A stretch of DNA of 9,007 nt from Selenomonas sp. (GTDB lineage: Bacteria > Bacillota_C > Negativicutes > Selenomonadales > Selenomonadaceae). A program made the position numbers and the translations under genes. Positions 391-9,007 of the stretch are shown here, one piece after another. Where the stretch lies: NCBI GenBank assembly GCA_017940705.1, contig JAGAYB010000175.1, positions 1 through 9,007 on the forward strand. The letters are read 5' to 3'. Position 1 is the first letter of the stretch; each line of letters begins with the position of its first letter. The notes below the pieces were generated by a model. It was not told the origin of the DNA. It ran no database searches and worked only from the letters and a program-made list of their open reading frames with translations.

Positions 391-1380
391 ATGGAAAGTT
401 TAACGCCTACAGAGTTGAAATCTATATTGTATTCCAAACGTGCTAATATATATTATTTGGAAAAATGCCGAGTAATGCAGAAGGATGGTCGTGTCTTATA
501 TCTGACGGAAGGAAAGAAGGCAAAACAGTATTGGAATATCCCTATAGCCAACACAACTGTGATTTTATTGGGGACGGGAACGTCCATTACGCAGGCAGCA
601 ATGCGTATGCTGGCTGGTGCAGGTGTATTGGTAGGATTCTGTGGCGGTGGGGGAACACCGCTGTTTTCAGGAACGGAGATTGAATGGTTAAGTCCGCAAA
701 GTGAATATCGGCCGACGCAGTACGTACAAGGCTGGGTGTCATTTTGGTTTGATGAAAATAAGCGTTTGCATGTAGCGAAGAATTTTCAAAGACAACGCTG
801 TGATTTTTTGGAAAAGGTGTGGGGAAAAGACAGAGACTTACAAAGCGCAGGCTTTTATGCAGATGATGCTGAAATTGAGCGGGCTTTGCAAGGTTTTCGT
901 CAAGGAATCGAGTGTGCTGATAACGTTGCGGAACTTTTAGCAGCAGAGGCGAATTTTGCTAAACAGTTGTATAAGTATTCAGCAATGCGTACAGATTATG
1001 GAGATTTTTCACGTGATGTTGACGCTGTGGATACGGCAAATATATTTTTAAACCATGGCAATTATCTGGCATACGGTATGGCTGCATCTGTTCTGTGGGT
1101 ATTGGGTATACCGCATGGCTTTGCTGTTATGCACGGCAAAACACGGCGCGGTGCGTTGGTATTTGATGTGGCCGATTTAATCAAAGATGCGATTGTGCTG
1201 CCCGGAGCGTTCTTTTGCGCGATGAATGATTATCGGGAGCAGGAATTTCGCGAGTATTGCCTGCAAAAATTTACGGAACACAAGGTACTGGACTTCATGT
1301 ATGATATAGTGAAAAAACAAAGCTTGCAGTGGCAGAAGGGAGTCGGTTCCGATGATGGTGATATTTACCAGTCAGAGTGA
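391..1380 (+). CDS. cas1: Cas1, type I-F CRISPR integrase
   Basis: Cas1 of 329 residues, the usual size for subtype I-F. Cas1, with Cas2, integrates new spacers at the leader end of the array; in I-F the partner Cas2 is fused to Cas3 and the proteins form a Cas1-Cas2/3 complex. The opening (MESLTPTELKSILYSKRANI) and the glycine-rich GFCGGGGTPLF region are typical of I-F Cas1. Metal-binding residues are visible: E186 in LLAAEANF, H248 in AVMHGK, and D259/D262 in VFDVAD, in the spacing of the E-H-D-D active site, so the enzyme looks intact. ATG at 391 is preceded by a purine-rich site, AAGGGGAGGG, at 374-383. The gene overlaps cas2/3 by 29 bases, implying co-transcription and coupled translation. 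A promoter is not evident; only an AT-rich TATAAA at 367-372 is seen, too close to the start to be persuasive. Confidence 0.96.
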   Translation: MESLTPTELKSILYSKRANIYYLEKCRVMQKDGRVLYLTEGKKAKQYWNIPIANTTVILLGTGTSITQAAMRMLAGAGVLVGFCGGGGTPLFSGTEIEWLSPQSEYRPTQYVQGWVSFWFDENKRLHVAKNFQRQRCDFLEKVWGKDRDLQSAGFYADDAEIERALQGFRQGIECADNVAELLAAEANFAKQLYKYSAMRTDYGDFSRDVDAVDTANIFLNHGNYLAYGMAASVLWVLGIPHGFAVMHGKTRRGALVFDVADLIKDAIVLPGAFFCAMNDYREQEFREYCLQKFTEHKVLDFMYDIVKKQSLQWQKGVGSDDGDIYQSE

Positions 1381-4300
1381 TAAAAACGCCCTGAAAACCA
1401 CGCGTTGGATTTTGGATGCTTTTGCCAACCGTATTGGAACGGATACCTGGCAGACGATTATTACCGAAGATGGCCTGCAGATGGTGAAAACTCTGCTGCG
1501 CCGTCATGCGACCAAGAGTATGTCCGTTTCCTGCCGTTGGATAAGGTCACGCACCCACAGTCAGCTATTATGGATTGTTGGCGATAAAAGTCGCTTTAAT
1601 GAAGAAGGTATTGTGCCTGTGAACAGTACACAGAAAGATTTGGCGCATAGCGAATGGGAAAACGATTGGGCACATCTGCCTGCCATCAAGGCTTTAGCGG
1701 CAATGGCCGGACTATTGCACGATTGGGGGAAGGCGAATAAGTCCTTCCAGAAATTGTTGAAGAAGAAAAAGGACAAGGACGGGAAAAAGACCAGTGACGA
1801 AGTCTATCGTCATGAATGGCTGAGCTGTAAATTGCTGGAAGGCTTGGTCTATCAGACAGATACGCAGAAGGATAACGCTTGGCTGGAACTTTTGCATACC
1901 GGAAAAATCCCGGAGAAAAAACTGGCGGAATATCTTAAAGAAAATGCAGATAAAGAATTAGCCGTTATGCCTCCGGCTGCCAGTATGCTGTGCTGGCTGA
2001 TACTTTCTCACCATCGTTTGCCGGCTTTGGATGAAAACCGCAGAAATAATTATAGCGAAACAGAAATGCCGGACTTTTCGGCGCTGCTGGCAAATTTCCA
2101 AGCGGATTGGGGATATAAAAAAGAGGGCAAGGATGAAGTTAAACTTGTTTCTGGCCTGCTAAAATCTGCCCCGTGGAAAAAGCAGTTGAAAAAATGGTCG
2201 GGCAGGCTGCTGGAGGTATATAGTGACTTGCAGGAGTTGTGGCAGCAACGGAATATCCGTCCACTGCTGCTGTATGCCAGAGTCAGCCTGATGCTCGGCG
2301 ATTATATGGTATCGGCAGATAAAGCCGACCCATCATGGCCACAGGATTGCACGTTATATGCCAACACCGATAAAAATGAGTTGAAACAGCGTTTGGATGA
2401 GCATTTGGTGCGTGTGGGCAGACAGGCGGCAAAAGCAGCACGTTGCCTGCCGCGCTTCGCGGAAGGCATGGAAAGAATAGAAGATGTGCCAGCCTTGCAG
2501 AAAAAAAGCCGGTTAAAGAATTTTTATTGGCAGGACAAGGTTACAGCTAAGATACAGGCTTACCGCAAGGAACATAGCGAAATCGCACATGAAGGCTGGT
2601 TTGTCATCAATATGGCCGGTACAGGTTGTGGCAAGACCTTTGCAAATGCGAAAATCATGAGAGCATTGTCCAGGGATGGAAAATCCCTGCGTTACAGTCT
2701 GTTGTTGGGCTTGCGTACCTTGACTCTGCAAACCGGTAAAGAATATCGCTCACGCGTGAAACTGGACAGCAGCGAAATGGCTGTGCTGGTGGGTTCCGCA
2801 GTCGTTAAGGATTTGTATGAGGATGAGGTCTGTTTAGAGGATACGGGCGATACAGCCTGTATGAATGAATTGCTGTCGGGCACGGTGCAGGCTAAATTTT
2901 CTGCGGAAGATGAAATGCTGGATGTATTGTTTGACCCGGCAGAAAAAATGACGGATGAAAAACGGCAGCTGCTCTATGCGCCTGTTCTGGTGGCCACGAT
3001 TGACCACTTAATGCCCAGCGTGGAGACCGTGCGCGGCGGCCGTCATATATTGCCGTTTCTGCGCCTTATGGCTGCTGATGTGGTCATTGATGAAATAGAT
3101 GATTTTGCCGGAAAAGATTTGGTGGCTATCGCGCGGCTGGTACATCTGGCGGGCTTGTTGGGAAGAAATATTGTGCTGTCATCTGCAACCATACCGCCGG
3201 ACTTAGCGGAAGGGCTGTTTTCGGCCTATTGGCGCGGACGGCAGGAGTATGCGCAGTTTTTTGGCTATAAGAACAACATCAATTGCGTTTGGTGTGATGA
3301 ATTTCAGCCGCAGGTGCAGACGATAGGTACGATGGAGCAGGACGGTGCTCTGCTTGCCTACCGTCAGGGACATAAGGAGTTTTCCCTGCGTCACTTAGAA
3401 AAATTGAAATCACAGCCAATCAAGCGGCGCGGCTGGATTGTTGATTGTGAAAAAATCCTGCAGCTGCCGCAGGAAGAACGAAAAGAAGCCTATTTTCAAG
3501 CTATGCAGCAGGCCATTGTGCGCTTGCATAATCAGTACGCCGTGAAGGATAAACGAACAGGAAAACGTGTGTCTTTCGGACTGGTGAGAGTCGCAAATAT
3601 TCTTCCCTGCGTTCAAGCCGCAAAGTATATGTTGAAATCGGAGTGGCCGGAGAAAATCGCTCCCCGGCTGCTGGTTTATCACAGTCGGCAGACAGCACTG
3701 TTACGCAGTCAGGAAGAAAAATATTTGGACAGAGTGTTAAAACGTAACGGACAAACAGGAACGGAAATTGATTTTCAAGATGCGCTTGTGCGTCGGCATA
3801 TTGAAGGGACAGAAGCGCAGGATATTATTTTTATACTGGTGGCAACACCGGTTGAAGAACTGGGACGCGACCATGACTTTGATTGGGCGGTAGTGGAACC
3901 ATCATCTTACCGCTCGCTTATTCAGCTGGCCGGACGTATTCGCCGCCATCGTGGTGAGCCTGCGGCGGCAGAATTGGGCAATATTGCGGTCATGCAATAT
4001 AATATCAAGGCTTTGCAGGAGATAAATGGCCCTGTATTTTGCCGCCCCGGCTTTGAGACGCAGGAAAAATACAGGCTGCGTACCCATGATATGAAGGAAT
4101 TGGTCAATACGGCTGAATTGGCAGCGGTCATAGATGCTTCGCCACGCACGGTGCGCCCCGAAAAATTGCAGGCACGCAGCAATCTGGTTCATTTGGAACA
4201 TAAGGTGTTAAGCGATTTCCGTGACCTGTCAAATTGCGGAGCGGCTTTCCTGCATGGCTGGCAGGAAGAATATTGGTGGCTTACGGCCTTGCCACAGCAG

Positions 4301-4793: not shown

Positions 4794-5721
4794 GTGTTCC
4801 GCCGAATAGGCGGCTTAGAAAATCTGTATAAGTGTTCGGCGGGCGTTATACCGGTGTTCCGCCGAATAGGCGGCTTAGAAAATATAGCCCCTGCCCCACA
4901 TAGGGGGGCAGGGGTGTTCCGCCGAATAGGCGGCTTAGAAAAGATAGTCGCACTGCTAACCAAGTAACACGCTGTGTTCCGCCGAATAGGCGGCTTAGAA
5001 ATATGAACCGACCACGGACGAAAAGATTGCGGCGTGTTCCGCCGAATAGGCGGCTTAGAAATTTTAGCACCATCTCCTGCGTTATCTGGTCATGTGTTCC
5101 GCCGAATAGGCGGCTTAGAAAATAATGCTCTGCTATCCTTCAGGCATTGGAGCGTGTTCCGCCGAATAGGCGGCTTAGAAAACGGGGGCCTAGCGCGGAG
5201 CCGTCACCTGTTTGTGTTCCGCCGAATAGGCGGCTTAGAAAGTGCCAGTTCCATCACTTCGGCGGTGGTGTTCGTGTTCCGCCGAATAGGCGGCTTAGAA
5301 AAGCGCCTCCAGCTCGGTGTGAAATAGCTTTGAGTGTTCCGCCGAATAGGCGGCTTAGAAAATAGATGTGATATGTTTTGCCCTTGTCAGCTTGTGTTCC
5401 GCCGAATAGGCGGCTTAGAAAATATATCAAAGATGTAGTCAATTCCGGGATGAGTGTTCCGCCGAATAGGCGGCTTAGAAAACAATACGCTGCAGACTGC
5501 GCTGTGTAAGATGGTGTTCCGCCGAATAGGCGGCTTAGAAACAATACTTGCCCAGAAGCGCGTCTTTGCCCTCGTGTACCGCCGAATAGGCGGCTTAGAA
5601 AGAATAGCCAAAAGCGCCCGTAATGTTTGGTAGGTGTACCGCTGAATAGGCGGCTTAGAAATACTTTGCCCTGCGAATTGAAGGGCGCAGCATGTGTACC
5701 GCCGAATAGGCGGCTTAGAAA
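4794..5721 (+). CRISPR. Type I-F CRISPR array, 16 repeats and 15 spacers
   Basis: Repeats of 28 bp begin every 60 bp from 4794 to 5694, and every spacer is exactly 32 bp, the I-F standard. The repeat reads GTGTT, then stem CCGCC, loop GAATA, stem GGCGG, then CTTAGAAA. This matches the I-F class, in which Cas6f/Csy4 cuts after the stem to leave an 8-base CUUAGAAA 5' handle. Transcription is therefore on the + strand with the leader at the left. The first 13 repeats are identical. The last three (5574, 5634, 5694) carry GTGTACC instead of GTGTTCC, and the one at 5634 also has CCGCT in the stem, keeping pairing by a G-U wobble; drift at the leader-distal end agrees with the orientation. Spacer 2 (4882-4913) is strongly self-complementary. 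I cannot assign spacer targets by eye, and saw no spacer matching this window. Confidence 0.99.
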
Positions 5722-5858: not shown

Positions 5859-6059
5859 GTGGATGATCAGAGTAAATTTAAGTGTGGATGCTGTGGGCAA
5901 TATACAATTGAAGAAGAAGGAACAATGGAATCTTGCCCCGTGTGCGGATGGATGCAAGACCCATATCAGGAGGAGTATAAAGATAAAACGGGTGGGGCTA
6001 ACCTTATGTCCCTCAATGAAGCACGTAAGGCTTACAAAGAGGGGCGACCAATCGAATAA
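5859..6059 (+). CDS. CPCC-type cysteine-rich small protein, copy 1
   Basis: A 66-residue protein with two CxxC knuckles (C9/C12 in CGCC, C26/C29 in CPVC), followed by the conserved tail GGANLMSLNEARKAY. This is the pattern of the CPCC cysteine-rich family (Cys_rich_CPCC), small presumed zinc-binding proteins of unknown biochemical role found singly or in clusters in bacterial accessory regions. The start is GTG at 5859, preceded by AAGAAGGGA eight bases upstream. It is 137 bases after the last CRISPR repeat, and I see no convincing promoter or other gene in that gap. It is a clear paralogue of the gene at 6165, and the two share even the ribosome-site context (GGACTTA before the start), so they arose by tandem duplication. 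No link to CRISPR function is known to me; position between array and csy1 is unusual. Function unknown. Confidence 0.85.
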   Translation: MDDQSKFKCGCCGQYTIEEEGTMESCPVCGWMQDPYQEEYKDKTGGANLMSLNEARKAYKEGRPIE

Positions 6060-6164: not shown

Positions 6165-6359
6165 GTGGAGGAAAGGCATAAATGCCCAGTTTGTGGTAAA
6201 TATATGTTTGAATATCGTAACTGTATGGACATTTGTGATGTATGCGACTGGTGTGACGATGCTATACAAGAAGATTCGCCCGATTACGCGGGTGGTGCAA
6301 ATCGTATGTCACTTAACGAAGCTCGTAAGGCGTACAGAGAGGGAAGGCAGGTAAGGTAG
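6165..6359 (+). CDS. CPCC-type cysteine-rich small protein, copy 2
   Basis: A 64-residue paralogue of the preceding gene, with C7/C10 (CPVC) and C24/C27 (CDVC) knuckles and the tail GGANRMSLNEARKAY. Its first knuckle is closer to the family consensus than that of copy 1. GTG at 6165 is preceded by AGGAGG at 6150-6155. The intergenic spacer of 105 bases holds a small inverted repeat (GAATATGT 6100-6107 with ACATATTC 6120-6127) of unknown meaning. Divergence between the copies outside the tail indicates an old duplication or separate acquisition of homologues. It probably shares a transcript with copy 1 and ends at the terminator just downstream. Presumed zinc-binding; role unknown. Confidence 0.87.
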   Translation: MEERHKCPVCGKYMFEYRNCMDICDVCDWCDDAIQEDSPDYAGGANRMSLNEARKAYREGRQVR

Positions 6360-6363
6360 CATG

Positions 6364-6413
6364 AAAATAGCCTACAACTTAACATTGAAGTTGCCACATG
6401 CCAGCTATTTTTG
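6364..6413 (+). terminator. Probable terminator of the CPCC gene pair
   Basis: AAAATAGC at 6364-6371 pairs with GCTATTTT at 6404-6411, ending in a T run, and an inner hairpin CAACTT/AAGTTG (6375-6380 with 6388-6393) shortens the loop. It begins just after the TAG of the second CPCC gene. The pairing is AT-rich and the loop branched, so efficiency is uncertain. The promoter for the next unit overlaps its 3' half. Confidence 0.5.
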
Positions 6414-6419
6414 TATAGT
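6391..6419 (+). promoter_or_regulatory. Sigma-70-type promoter starting at an orphan CRISPR repeat
   Basis: TTGCCA (6391-6396) and TATAGT (6414-6419) are each one mismatch from consensus and are 17 bp apart. The predicted start, about seven bases after the -10 box, falls at or next to 6426, the first base of the orphan repeat. It would drive the ATPase gene with the repeat as the 5' end of its mRNA. Confidence 0.55.
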
Positions 6420-6425
6420 GAAGAA

Positions 6426-6453
6426 GTGTTCCTCCGAATAGGAGGCTTAGAAA
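6426..6453 (+). repeat. Orphan CRISPR repeat with compensatory stem change
   Basis: A single 28-base copy of the array repeat, about 700 bp beyond the array. It differs at only two positions, and these are the facing bases of one stem pair: CCGCC/GGCGG has become CCTCC/GGAGG. Loop GAATA and handle CTTAGAAA are unchanged, so an RNA hairpin that Cas6f could bind and cut is preserved. No second repeat follows; 33 bases after it the ATPase start codon occurs, with its ribosome binding site inside the would-be spacer. It may be a 5' UTR element that lets Cas6f act on the ATPase mRNA, a crRNA-like guide, or an array remnant. Confidence 0.9.
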
Positions 6454-6486: not shown

Positions 6487-7227
6487 ATGATGGATTGGTT
6501 GCTTTTCATCCGTAAGGCAGTAATTGATTGGAATTATGTCGATGATGATAGCTATCTGTTTGATATTCCTGCGATTAGCGATATAGATGAGATTGAGTTT
6601 CATGTCCCAATAACGCTGTTAGCAGGAGAAAATGGTATGGGGAAATCTACATTACTTGAAGCGATGGCTGTAGCGGCAGGTTTCAATCCTGAGGGAGGTA
6701 CAAGAAATTACGCATTTTCAACATATAATTCCCATTCTGATTTGTGTAATGCTATGAAACTGGTCAAAAGTGGCAAAAAAAACAAATGGGGTTATTTTCT
6801 TCGTGCCGAGAGTTTCTATAATGTCGCAACTAAGGAAGATGAATATAGCAAAGGTCCTGGAGGTATACCAGAACATTTTCATGAAATGTCACATGGTGAA
6901 AGTTTCTTTAGAATTGCAGAAAGCCAATTCCGTGGAAATGGACTTTATTTTTTGGATGAGCCAGAAGCAGCGCTGTCTCCGCAACGACAGCTGGCCTTGC
7001 TAAGAAAAATTTGTATGTGTGTTAAGAATGGGGCACAATTCTTCATTGTAACTCACTCGCCTATATTGCTTGGAATACCTTATGCACAAATCCTTTCTTT
7101 CGATGAGGATGGGATTCATGTGACCGAATATGAAGATACAGACAGCTATCTAGTGACGTCGCTTTTCATCAATCGTCGAGAGTATATATTAAAGCAAATT
7201 TTAGAAGATGAGCAGTCATACAATTAG
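6487..7227 (+). CDS. Stand-alone ABC-type AAA ATPase (COG3910-like)
   Basis: A 246-residue single-domain ATPase. Visible motifs (numbered from the ATG at 6487) are Walker A GENGMGKST (47-55), a degenerate signature MSHGES (134-139), Walker B LYFLDEPE with D157/E158, and the H-loop histidine H190 in FIVTHSP. This is the layout of small ABC-like or OLD-like predicted ATPases without membrane segments. No nuclease, TOPRIM or transporter domain is attached, and no partner gene of that type is adjacent. Relatives are scattered in bacteria, often as orphan genes or near defence genes; the substrate is unknown. A longer form could begin at GTG 6475, but AGGAG there overlaps that codon; GGAG at 6477-6480 is six bases from ATG 6487, which I prefer (ATG 6490 is next). 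Its 5' leader would be the orphan CRISPR repeat. No clear terminator follows. Confidence 0.85.
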   Translation: MMDWLLFIRKAVIDWNYVDDDSYLFDIPAISDIDEIEFHVPITLLAGENGMGKSTLLEAMAVAAGFNPEGGTRNYAFSTYNSHSDLCNAMKLVKSGKKNKWGYFLRAESFYNVATKEDEYSKGPGGIPEHFHEMSHGESFFRIAESQFRGNGLYFLDEPEAALSPQRQLALLRKICMCVKNGAQFFIVTHSPILLGIPYAQILSFDEDGIHVTEYEDTDSYLVTSLFINRREYILKQILEDEQSYN

Positions 7228-7300
7228 AAATCCAGATACAAAGTTACTAGCTTGCGAAAAGTGTTGCAACGGATTATGACAAGACAATCTGCCTAGAGTA

Positions 7301-7330
7301 TTGGCAAAGCGTATCAAATCGTGCTAAGAT
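7301..7330 (+). promoter_or_regulatory. Promoter of the predicted CRISPR-like small RNA
   Basis: TTGGCA (7301-7306, one mismatch) and an extended -10, TG at 7322-7323 followed after one base by TAAGAT (7325-7330), are 18 bp apart. Transcription would begin around 7336-7338, directly before the degenerate repeat at 7340. The placement mirrors the promoter before the orphan repeat at 6426. The weak -10 hexamer lowers confidence. Confidence 0.6.
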
Positions 7331-7336
7331 AACATT

Positions 7337-7414
7337 GGTTGTTTCCGTCGTGCAGACGGCTTAGAAATCTATTATTTTATTGGATGATATTCCGCCGAGA
7401 AGGCGGCATTTTTT
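7337..7414 (+). ncRNA. Predicted mini-crRNA regulating the csy operon (CreR/CreA-like)
   Basis: About 78 nt with three parts. First, a degenerate repeat at 7340-7367: 20 of 28 bases match the array repeat, the last eight (CTTAGAAA, the Cas6f handle) perfectly, and stem CCGTC/GACGG shows a compensatory change against CCGCC/GGCGG. Second, a guide from 7368. Third, a hairpin CCGCC-GAGAA-GGCGG (7392-7406), the array-repeat stem itself, running into a T run. The guide's first 15 bases equal 7423-7437, just before the csy1 promoter and behind a CC. Known CreA/CreR RNAs use the same logic: a repeat-derived RNA with partial target complementarity leads the effector complex to a promoter, which is bound but not cleaved. 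I infer autorepression of csy1-csy2-csy3-csy4. If cut by Cas6f at both hairpins, the mature RNA would span 7360-7406, 47 nt instead of 60. It has its own promoter and terminator. The alternative, a decayed array end, does not explain the target match. Confidence 0.85.
7392..7414 (+). terminator. Repeat-derived Rho-independent terminator of the small RNA
   Basis: Stem CCGCC (7392-7396) and GGCGG (7402-7406), loop GAGAA, then CA and a run of six T. Stem and the preceding TT are the same as in the array repeat, while the handle is replaced by the T run. It thus seems to be a CRISPR repeat turned into a terminator, and could serve as the 3' Cas6f-binding hairpin of the small RNA. Confidence 0.8.
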
Positions 7415-7420
7415 ATTTAA

Positions 7421-7440
7421 CCTCTATTATTTTATTGTAT
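7421..7440 (+). promoter_or_regulatory. Predicted Csy-complex operator (CC PAM plus seed match)
   Basis: CC at 7421-7422 is followed by TCTATTATTTTATTG (7423-7437), identical to the first 15 guide bases of the small RNA; after one mismatch the next two bases also agree (17 of 18). Matching then breaks down. 5'-CC is the canonical type I-F PAM on this side of the protospacer. The site ends at the -35 box, so a bound complex should exclude RNA polymerase. Confidence 0.8.
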
Positions 7441-7468
7441 TGACTAGCGATGGAGACGGGAGTATAAT
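7440..7468 (+). promoter_or_regulatory. Promoter of the csy (cas8f-cas5f...) operon
   Basis: TTGACT (7440-7445) and a perfect TATAAT (7463-7468) are 17 bp apart, the best promoter in the window. The start would be near 7475, giving a 5' UTR of about 54 bases to csy1. It lies between the operator and the csy1 ribosome binding site. Confidence 0.85.
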
Positions 7469-7528
7469 ACAAAACATAAAGGAAATTTACAGATAATCTT
7501 GAATAGTATAGTGAGTGAGGTGAAGGCG

Positions 7529-8686
7529 ATGAGTATTTTGGGAGATTATGTACAGGCGGAGGCCGACAAGAAAGGCAGTCCACCGGGGCAATGGCTGGCT
7601 GATGTTGCTAAAAATGCAAGCAAATGTCAGTTTGCTACACATATTGGGCGTTTTGTCAATCCTGATGTGACCGTGAACTGGCAGGCAAAAATAAGGGAAA
7701 AGCCGGATGAACCGTATGTGTCCACCGCAGCGGCAGAATGTCAGCCGGATATTTTTGTGGCGGCTAACTATTTGGCTACTGCCAGTTTGTTGCAGCTGGC
7801 ATTAGAGGACGGCAGGACCTTTTATGAGCATTTGCAGGATGATGATGACCAACTGCGTCAGGAACTTAGTCATTGGCAGCTTAATTATGAACAGGTACGG
7901 GAGGATTTTCTGGCGATAAAATCCGATGAAGTGCCAACGGCAACGGATACGCGGCTAAAGCAGGTGTATTTTCCTGTAGGGAATGAAGATTATCACCTGT
8001 TGACGGTGTTGCCGCCATCCAGTCTGATGCAGGAGGTAAGAACACGCATTCGCAAGATGGAGACGGATGCGCGAGAGGCTTGTGATAAAAAATCGACAAA
8101 ATACGGCAGTACGCATAGGCGTATCTATAATCTGACCCAGACGAAGTTTGGCGGTACGAAGCCTCAGAATATATCCTTCGGCAATAATCGCCAAGGAGGG
8201 CGCAGCTATATGCTGCCATCTATGCCACCACAGTTGTATAAAAGAGAGGTAATTCTGCCCAAGCGCGATTTTTTCAAAGAATCATTACGGCTGCGGAATT
8301 TTGCCAATCTGTTCCGGCAGCTGCATGGCCGTTATGCGGATACCCGGAACAATAAGGACATACGTCAGGCGGCCCGCCTTATAGAACGGCAGATTATGGA
8401 ACTCACCTTGCAACAGGTCTATGCCTTGCGGCAGGAGGAACAAGGCTGGAGTGATAGCCGTAAATTGAGCAAGGCGCAAGCTGTTTGGCTGGATGATAAA
8501 TATGCTGATATGCGTATTGAGGAAACAGATTGGCAGAAAGAATTGGCTGGCCAGTTCGCCAGTTGGATATTAGATACTTATCGGTTTGTGTTGAAAACAG
8601 ACGGTGTAGATTTGGGGGATGACGAACTGGCGGCATTGAGAAAAGAAACGCAAGAACTTATTAAAGAGGATTTGCGGCAGCAATAG
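7529..8686 (+). CDS. cas8f: Cas8f/Csy1, large subunit of the type I-F Csy complex
   Basis: Large subunit of the crRNA-guided Csy surveillance complex; with Cas5f it caps the 5' handle and recognises the PAM. The family hallmark GGTKPQNIS is at residues 208-216, followed by RQGGRSYMLPSMPP; an earlier YFPVGNEDYHLL (147-158) also fits the family. K211 and N214 have the spacing of the lysine wedge and PAM-contacting asparagine (K247/N250) described in Pseudomonas aeruginosa Csy1, so CC recognition is probably retained. With the ATG at 7529 the protein has 385 residues, shorter than the P. aeruginosa protein (~434), though no frameshift is seen. The frame can be extended to TTG 7499, but ATG 7529 has GAGGTGA at 7517-7523 in front, while TTG lacks a suitably spaced site. 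It is the first gene of an operon with csy2, which starts 12 bases after its stop, and is probably controlled by the mini-crRNA. Confidence 0.95.
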   Translation: MSILGDYVQAEADKKGSPPGQWLADVAKNASKCQFATHIGRFVNPDVTVNWQAKIREKPDEPYVSTAAAECQPDIFVAANYLATASLLQLALEDGRTFYEHLQDDDDQLRQELSHWQLNYEQVREDFLAIKSDEVPTATDTRLKQVYFPVGNEDYHLLTVLPPSSLMQEVRTRIRKMETDAREACDKKSTKYGSTHRRIYNLTQTKFGGTKPQNISFGNNRQGGRSYMLPSMPPQLYKREVILPKRDFFKESLRLRNFANLFRQLHGRYADTRNNKDIRQAARLIERQIMELTLQQVYALRQEEQGWSDSRKLSKAQAVWLDDKYADMRIEETDWQKELAGQFASWILDTYRFVLKTDGVDLGDDELAALRKETQELIKEDLRQQ

Positions 8687-8698
8687 GGGGTGATGTGT

Positions 8699-9007
8699 GT
8701 GTCGGCAAAATATTTAGTCATTCCCCATTTGCATATTCAGAATGCAAATGCAGCCAGCAGTCCATATACCGTGGGTTTTCCGGCAATGACGGCATGGCTG
8801 GGGATGATTCATGCTCTGCAGCGTCGGCTGCAGAAAAATGAGGTACTGCGTAAGATAAGCCTGCCTCGTATGGGCATATCTTGTCATGCCTGTGATATGC
8901 AGATTTTTTCCGATAGGGACAACTATTATGGTTATTTGATTGGTACGGCGAATCCGCTGAAAAAAAGCAAAAAAACAGGAGAGTTTGAACGGCCGCCGTT
9001 TGTCGAA
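8699..9007 (+). CDS. cas5f: Cas5f/Csy2, type I-F Csy complex subunit, N-terminal part
   Basis: The frame is open to the window edge, giving the first 103 residues. It opens AKYLVIPHLHIQNANAASSP, then VGFPAMTAWLGMIHALQRR and GISCHACDMQI, which match the start of Csy2 proteins (hallmark RL.IQNANA and the GF...G..HALQRR block). Csy2 pairs with Csy1 at the crRNA 5' handle. AGGGGGTGAT at 8685-8694 nearly equals the ideal ribosome binding sequence; GTG at 8699 lies at correct distance and is preferred, while ATG at 8693 in the same frame overlaps that site and would add only two residues. The gene begins 12 bases after csy1, so the two are cotranscribed. csy3 and csy4 are expected next. Confidence 0.93.
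   Translation, partial: MSAKYLVIPHLHIQNANAASSPYTVGFPAMTAWLGMIHALQRRLQKNEVLRKISLPRMGISCHACDMQIFSDRDNYYGYLIGTANPLKKSKKTGEFERPPFVE

Follow-up and report, generated by a model that had tools for sequence, protein, structure and literature searches.

Stand-alone pairs of CRISPR repeats (mini-arrays), mostly of type I, were reportedly described by Shmakov et al. in 2023 as being aimed at cas promoters, those of cas8 above all; one I-F1 mini-array is said to have been experimentally tested there as a regulatory guide, and phage mini-arrays were reportedly predicted to repress effector genes. CreR RNAs are crRNA-like, have partial complementarity to the promoter of their own cas operon and are predicted to exert autorepression (PMC13131331, PMC12737573); the types named in PMC13131331 are I-B, I-E and V-A. 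In Acinetobacter, the type I-F CreA consists of psiR1, a 20-nt psiS and psiR2, uses a CC PAM, lies in the gap between cas3 and csy1 and represses a promoter (PMC10097628). Positions 6, 11 and 18 of its guide are naturally unpaired, while breaking positions 10, 12, 19 or 20 is described as harmless (PMC10097628). Also within type I-F, the RNA anti-CRISPR RacrIF1 acts by way of Cas6f and an aberrant subcomplex (PMC10651486).

Here we analyse a stretch of 9,007 nucleotides from Selenomonas sp., hereafter the window, which contains a mini-CRISPR whose guide matches a site at the promoter of csy1. The likeness to CreR lies in a crRNA-like RNA aimed at the promoter of its own cas operon, with autorepression predicted in both cases; unlike the I-B, I-E and V-A examples, the element of the window is of type I-F, has a 19-nt guide and allows mismatches at positions 6 and 12. 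With Acinetobacter CreTA it shares the psiR1-psiS-psiR2 arrangement, the CC PAM, unpaired guide positions and the cas3-csy1 gap, whereas CreTA represses a toxin RNA in divergent orientation and the target in the window is at the csy1 promoter, with no toxin seen. Compared with the mini-arrays that Shmakov and colleagues reportedly described in 2023, the selenomonad form is co-directed with csy1 and upstream of its target, while in 21 other loci of our survey the mini-array reads away from csy1. Given CreR and the I-F1 mini-arrays just mentioned, the kind is already known and the element of the window is a further member of it. Among the open-licence papers listed in literature searches, there was no I-F CreR in Selenomonas, nor any mention of selenomonad mini-arrays co-directed with csy1, of a counted periodicity at 6 and 12 or of the phage near-copy reported below.

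Results

The locus and its mini-CRISPR

The window carries a type I-F locus with affinity to Selenomonas ruminantium. In it, cas1f and cas3f (the latter presumably a cas2-3 fusion, as is usual in I-F) are followed by a 16-repeat array, two small cysteine-rich genes, the gene of a PtuA/AriA-like AAA ATPase, csy1 and the start of csy2 (Table 1). The gene csy4 falls outside the window; a relative, S. ruminantium UBA3715 (L004), whose Csy1 is 96% identical to that of the window, carries csy1-4. The mini-CRISPR, at 7340-7414, sits between the ATPase gene and csy1.

Table 1. Features of the window, with the phage mini-array in the last line.
Feature	Position	Strand	Basis or details
cas1f	391..1380	+	TIGR03637
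cas3f, 1092 aa	1352..4630	+	TIGR02562
CRISPR array, 16 repeats, spacing 60	4794..5721	+	16 DR4 matches (Rfam CRISPR-DR4)
Predicted mini-array promoter, TTGGCA-18-TAAGAT, TG before -10	7301..7330	+	9/12
psiR1, degenerate I-F repeat, stem CCGTC/GACGG, intact CTTAGAAA handle	7340..7367	+	sequence
psiS, 19-nt guide TCTATTATTTTATTGGATG	7368..7386	+	sequence
psiR2, repeat-like hairpin CCGCC-GAGAA-GGCGG, then T tract; predicted Csy4 site and local terminator	7387..7414	+	
CC PAM	7421..7422	+	CC flanks the best guide match near csy1 in 33/33 loci
Protospacer-like target	7423..7441	+	guide matched at 1-15 and 17-18; overlaps first two -35 bases
Predicted csy1 promoter, TTGACT-17-TATAAT	7440..7468	+	11/12 consensus
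csy1 (cas8f)	7529..8686	+	TIGR02564, 179.7 bits vs cut-off 169.4
csy2 (cas5f), cut by window end	8699..9007	+	TIGR02565, E 1.2e-21
Phage two-repeat mini-array, 22-nt spacer	L129 11645-11790; L139	minus (L139)	IMG/VR scans

Two other observations concern the region between the array and the ATPase gene. The two small genes located there (5859-6059 and 6165-6359) are alike and belong to Cys_rich_CPCC (PF14206). A second solitary repeat, GTGTTCCTCCGAATAGGAGGCTTAGAAA, is found at 6426-6453, immediately ahead of the start of the ATPase gene; its stem is compensated, with CCTCC/GGAGG in place of CCGCC/GGCGG, and a TTGCCA-17-TATAGT box, recognized by eye at 6391-6419, lies just upstream. This repeat may be an mRNA leader bound by Csy4. 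A target for it was sought across the window and none was found, the best CC site reaching 10/15, and no solitary repeat at the ATPase gene was listed in the relatives scanned.

The mini-CRISPR is composed of psiR1, the guide psiS and the repeat-like hairpin psiR2. Against Rfam CRISPR-DR4, psiR1 scores 22.6 bits over 7341-7367 (E 0.35), below gathering; across the 12 elements found in Negativicutes, 60 of 60 cells of its stem are paired and two-sided changes occur in three of the five pairs. The psiR2 hairpin, which spans 7387-7407 in the window, is present in all 12 as well. The original prediction regarded the hairpin at 7392-7406 as a terminator belonging to the element, and in the window, where a T tract follows it, this description fits. 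As a general role it was rejected, since the T tract occurs in only 3/12 elements (window, L001 and L004), and for this reason psiR2 is read as a 3' repeat first and as a terminator only sometimes. A similar nuance applies to the promoter assigned to the element: taken alone it is weak, since 7200-7600 contains two promoter-like sites and shuffled sequence gives 1.3 (sd 1.3), and in its favour a TGnTAAGATA element in the -10 region is common to the window, L001, L002 and L004. Where psiR2 could be measured, psiS has 19-20 nt in 19 of 32 elements, versus 32 nt in arrays. As 20 equals 32 minus two six-base steps, the short psiS suggests a shorter Csy complex, and the mature RNA is predicted at about 47 nt (8+19+20).

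A copy of the guide at the csy1 promoter

The first 15 bases of the guide are found again, identical, 36 bases past its end, at 7423-7437, and a repeat search extends the pair to 18 nt with 94% identity (7368-7385 vs 7423-7440). The coordinates originally proposed for the repeat, its handle, the guide, the copy and the CC were exact, as was the description of a match that starts at the boundary between handle and guide, behind CC, and adjoins the -35 box of the csy1 promoter. When the guide was shuffled and compared with the 37 CC sites located from 500 nt upstream of csy1 to the csy1 start, 0 of 20,000 shuffles reached the observed 14/15, a score taken over positions 1-17 with 6 and 12 left out. 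Among all other CC sites of the window, the highest score is 9/15.

Guide and site in related loci

We gathered 106 loci, comprising the window, the best 80 of 397 csy1 loci found and 25 more that were contributed by 23 of 189 genomes within the same family; 20 duplicates were dropped, leaving 86. Repeats were called by a handle of 7/8 and a five-pair stem, up to 500 nt upstream of csy1 and ignoring the target, which yielded 43 repeats in 35 of the 86 loci. In 33 loci, one repeat each has its own CC-flanked site with 13-15 of the 15 positions equal. The remaining ten repeats score 6-8, nine of them belonging to ordinary arrays at 60-nt spacing (L010, L089) and one a second repeat in L049. The element occurs in 12 of the 27 Selenomonadaceae/Negativicutes loci (window, L001-L008, L011, L016, L101) and in 21 of the 59 others, which by record title are mostly Gammaproteobacteria with some Desulfobacterota and include one Legionella. 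It was absent from 15 of the 27, even in a looser scan to 900 nt (589 nt upstream being covered in L010), and from 38 of the 59 (under 300 nt upstream being covered in L039 and L054), so that it is not universal. Both in the window and in the relatives that have it, the mini-CRISPR lies near cas genes and its repeat-like sequences flank a short spacer.

In each locus we took the best promoter-like site ahead of csy1, and considered that the target touches this promoter when it overlaps the interval that runs from 5 nt before its -35 to 10 nt beyond its -10. By this measure the target touches the promoter in 31 of 33 loci, where random placement would give 8.7, and in 12/12 of Negativicutes; L030 and L046 are the exceptions, and 8 of the 33 best promoter calls are weak (8/12 or less). 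Ten of the 12 hits in Negativicutes have the PAM-distal end of the 20-nt site inside the -35 box or no more than 2 nt from it. Selenomonad mini-arrays run in the direction of csy1 and precede their targets. In the 21 loci outside Negativicutes (e.g. L023, L028, L031) the mini-array is on the opposite strand and read away from csy1, with the site also on that strand in 20 of them, and in 11 the PAM end of the site is at most 4 nt from the predicted csy1 -35 box. The same placement is thus reached with two geometries. In both, the spacer is partially complementary to the predicted cognate cas promoter, with the CC next to the site in every locus.

Guides are diverse, with 10 distinct ones among the 12 Negativicutes elements and 31 among the 33 overall, and each matches its own site. 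When the PAM requirement and the position weighting were dropped, the same best site was recovered in 33/33 loci, with CC in 33/33. The mismatches per position from 1 to 15 over the 33 loci are 0,0,0,0,0,15,0,1,0,2,1,17,0,2,0, which amounts to 32/66 at positions 6 and 12 versus 6/429 elsewhere (Fisher p 5e-26, with loci that share ancestry). Where guide and target pair in type I effectors, the base at each sixth position is flipped out, and this pattern of mismatches is the one expected from pairing inside the Csy complex.

The original prediction anticipated that guide and promoter site would co-vary in relatives, and they do so: independent drift was not seen, and 33 of the 43 called repeats match their own site. 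Among the nine alignable selenomonads, variation is seen in 7 of the 13 columns left when 6 and 12 are set aside, and in each of the seven the guide agrees with its site in all nine loci; pairwise changes are concerted in 144/144 cases outside positions 6 and 12, versus 14/53 at these two, the pairs sharing ancestry. In L006, L007 and L008 the guide is identical over 20 nt and the sites differ within 1-17 only at 6 and 12. Own guides score 13-15 and swapped guides mostly 7-10, with 17 of 1056 swaps reaching 13. In fourteen of these, a relative with a similar guide is involved and the match falls on the target proper to the promoter; the other three correspond to the guide shared by L006-L008 on a different, minus-strand site of the window, a chance match which shows that in AT-rich DNA a score of 13 can be reached fortuitously. 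The covariation has no easy explanation apart from pairing within the Csy complex, and points to selection keeping guide and site paired.

Whether guides turn over faster than neutral sites was also considered, and this idea was rejected as a rule. Window and L004 are suggestive, with 4/13 guide changes vs 25/143 at four-fold sites; L006-L008 are contrary, with 0/13 vs 0.38-0.39. In view of the latter, no general acceleration is claimed.

A near-copy in a phage

Two scans of IMG/VR, one for the repeat end followed by TCTAT (36 stretches) and the other for a single repeat hairpin (8 contigs), both returned L129 and L139, which are 99.4-100% identical over the aligning stretches and carry a two-repeat mini-array (Table 1). 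Eight of ten tested proteins of L129 match PHROGs (including large and small terminase, head-tail adaptor, major head, tail and internal virion protein). Its terminase is ~51% identical to those of Escherichia phages, some with podovirus-style names, from which we infer that the virus is a podophage. The unit of L129 has a TTGACA-15-TATAAT box preceded by TG, noticed by eye (the promoter scan spans spacers of 16-18 and did not list it), and downstream of the mini-array there is a 16-bp hairpin that has a T run.

The phage guide, TCTATCATTTTGTTG, differs from the window site, TCTATTATTTTATTG, within positions 1-15 at 6 and 12, the 13 others being equal, and within 20 nt also at 16 and 18. None of 200,000 shuffles reached 13/13 on any of the 12 Negativicutes sites; the first five letters of the phage guide were preselected in the TCTAT scan and not in the hairpin scan. 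At least 459 I-F-like repeats, located on 134 of 196 viral stretches, were set against the 33 targets and, among the matches listed, only the L129/L139 phage reaches 13/13; no other viral repeat among them exceeds 11/13, in a set biased by the preselection of the guide start in several scans. The phage mini-array had no match in the named phage and plasmid collections searched, and a search for viral relatives of Csy1 found none.

With respect to the hosts, 19 selenomonad-type loci provided 384 array spacers, of which one matches the phage strongly. It belongs to L001 (S. ruminantium UBA6979), where 3139-3170 equals L129 9235-9266 at 30/32 positions, with CC, and the two mismatches fall at positions 2 and 4 of the seed, like those of escape variants. 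The other matches between spacers and phage cover short lengths of 12-21 nt and are probably fortuitous. On the basis of the S. ruminantium spacer, the phage very probably meets hosts of the selenomonad group.

Pairs of viral I-F repeats with a spacer of 28 nt or less were also recorded: there are 23 on 19 contigs, namely L129, L139, L193, L201, L202, L213, L217, L228, L229, L241, L243, L248, L251, L263, L267, L176, L178, L298 and L301. Most of the spacers have 18-22 nt, the length of the host guides aimed at promoters. L202 contains four repeats at 48-nt spacing. On the minus strand of L178, the guide after the repeat end at 8533, which begins with ATTACATAATTAG, resembles the csy1 promoter sites of Crenothrix/Methylobacter L030 and L040 (11/13).

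Discussion

The anatomy of the element, the match, the CC, the position at a -35-like box and the concerted evolution of guide and site are established by comparison of sequences. We consider it very likely that the mini-CRISPR yields a crRNA-like RNA that would direct the Csy complex to the csy1 promoter, where the complex would repress its own operon. In this mechanism, the mini-array would be transcribed and its RNA processed by Csy4 to about 47 nt and loaded into a shortened Csy complex. By covering the csy1 promoter, the complex would block RNA polymerase sterically, and it would not recruit Cas3, since the guide is too short for the full 32-bp R-loop. A complex on its own promoter implies that free complex would limit its own synthesis. 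By analogy with CreR, repression may be released once array crRNAs or anti-CRISPRs have depleted the complex (PMC12737573, PMC13131331).

A first alternative is that the element is the antitoxin half of a CreTA/CrePA-like module, in which the guided complex represses a toxin and csy1 is merely downstream. Both the psiR1-psiS-psiR2 arrangement and the CC PAM recur in the I-F CreA of Acinetobacter, which likewise lies in the cas3-csy1 gap (PMC10097628), and the csy1 5' leader is strongly conserved in the closest loci. Nevertheless, the target is on a promoter-like site reading into csy1, and the leader that follows (7469-7528) has 60 bases and no ATG, an arrangement with which an RNA toxin lacking an ORF would still be compatible. 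Moreover, the leader of L006-L008 is not alike and yet guide and target persist there, and in L016 and L101 the site covers the predicted csy1 promoter (the -10 box and the -35 box, respectively) just before csy1. Taken together, this makes a toxin module very improbable.

The promoter site could also be a protospacer for priming or interference, that is, self-targeting and not repression. In type I-F, CC plus a partial match can suffice to trigger priming. However, cleavage of self DNA would kill the cell and the site would disappear, while it is instead kept and co-evolves with the guide; in addition, from what is generally known of Csy structures, guides of 19-20 nt would not form a full R-loop. 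We give this explanation as slight a chance as the preceding one.

Slighter still is the chance that psiR1 is a decoy, similar to Racr RNAs, that merely occupies Csy4, the guide match being incidental. Solitary I-F repeats do act in this manner in phages (PMC10651486), but 33 matches to own sites with CC, together with concerted changes, would be unexpected of a decoy. Finally, a chance match or a mechanical tandem duplication, which the AT-rich composition of the match, the distance of 55 nt and the one swapped unrelated guide reaching 13/15 might evoke, is practically ruled out, in line with the original view of the match as no simple duplication, by the shuffles, the swaps, the covariation, the start at the handle boundary behind an invariable CC and the 21 non-Negativicutes loci whose opposite-strand elements have the same 6/12 mismatch pattern.

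Racr RNAs resemble the phage near-copy in being phage-encoded I-F repeats, Racr being expressed from its own promoter (PMC10651486), whereas the L129 element also carries a guide matching the host csy1 promoter site. Judging from that guide, this podophage-like virus likely exploits the csy1 switch of its host. A more elaborate scenario, which we regard as evenly balanced between true and false, is that a Selenomonas podophage carries a forged autorepressor, a mini-array with a promoter and terminator of its own and a guide that departs from the window's csy1 promoter site within 1-15 solely at 6 and 12, positions that the Csy complex would not read. During infection it would enter Csy complexes and shut csy1-4, the concerted turnover of guide and site among host strains being equivalent to changing the lock. 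The absence of guide change in L006-L008 weighs against this last part.

In conclusion, the model of autorepression in type I-F is backed by a strict periodic covariation and not by one sequence match. The case in Negativicutes is far from the proteobacterial I-F cases and has the opposite orientation. Furthermore, the near-copy in a phage that is matched by an S. ruminantium spacer makes a predicted counter-move, the repression of the effector genes through the host's own switch, directly testable.
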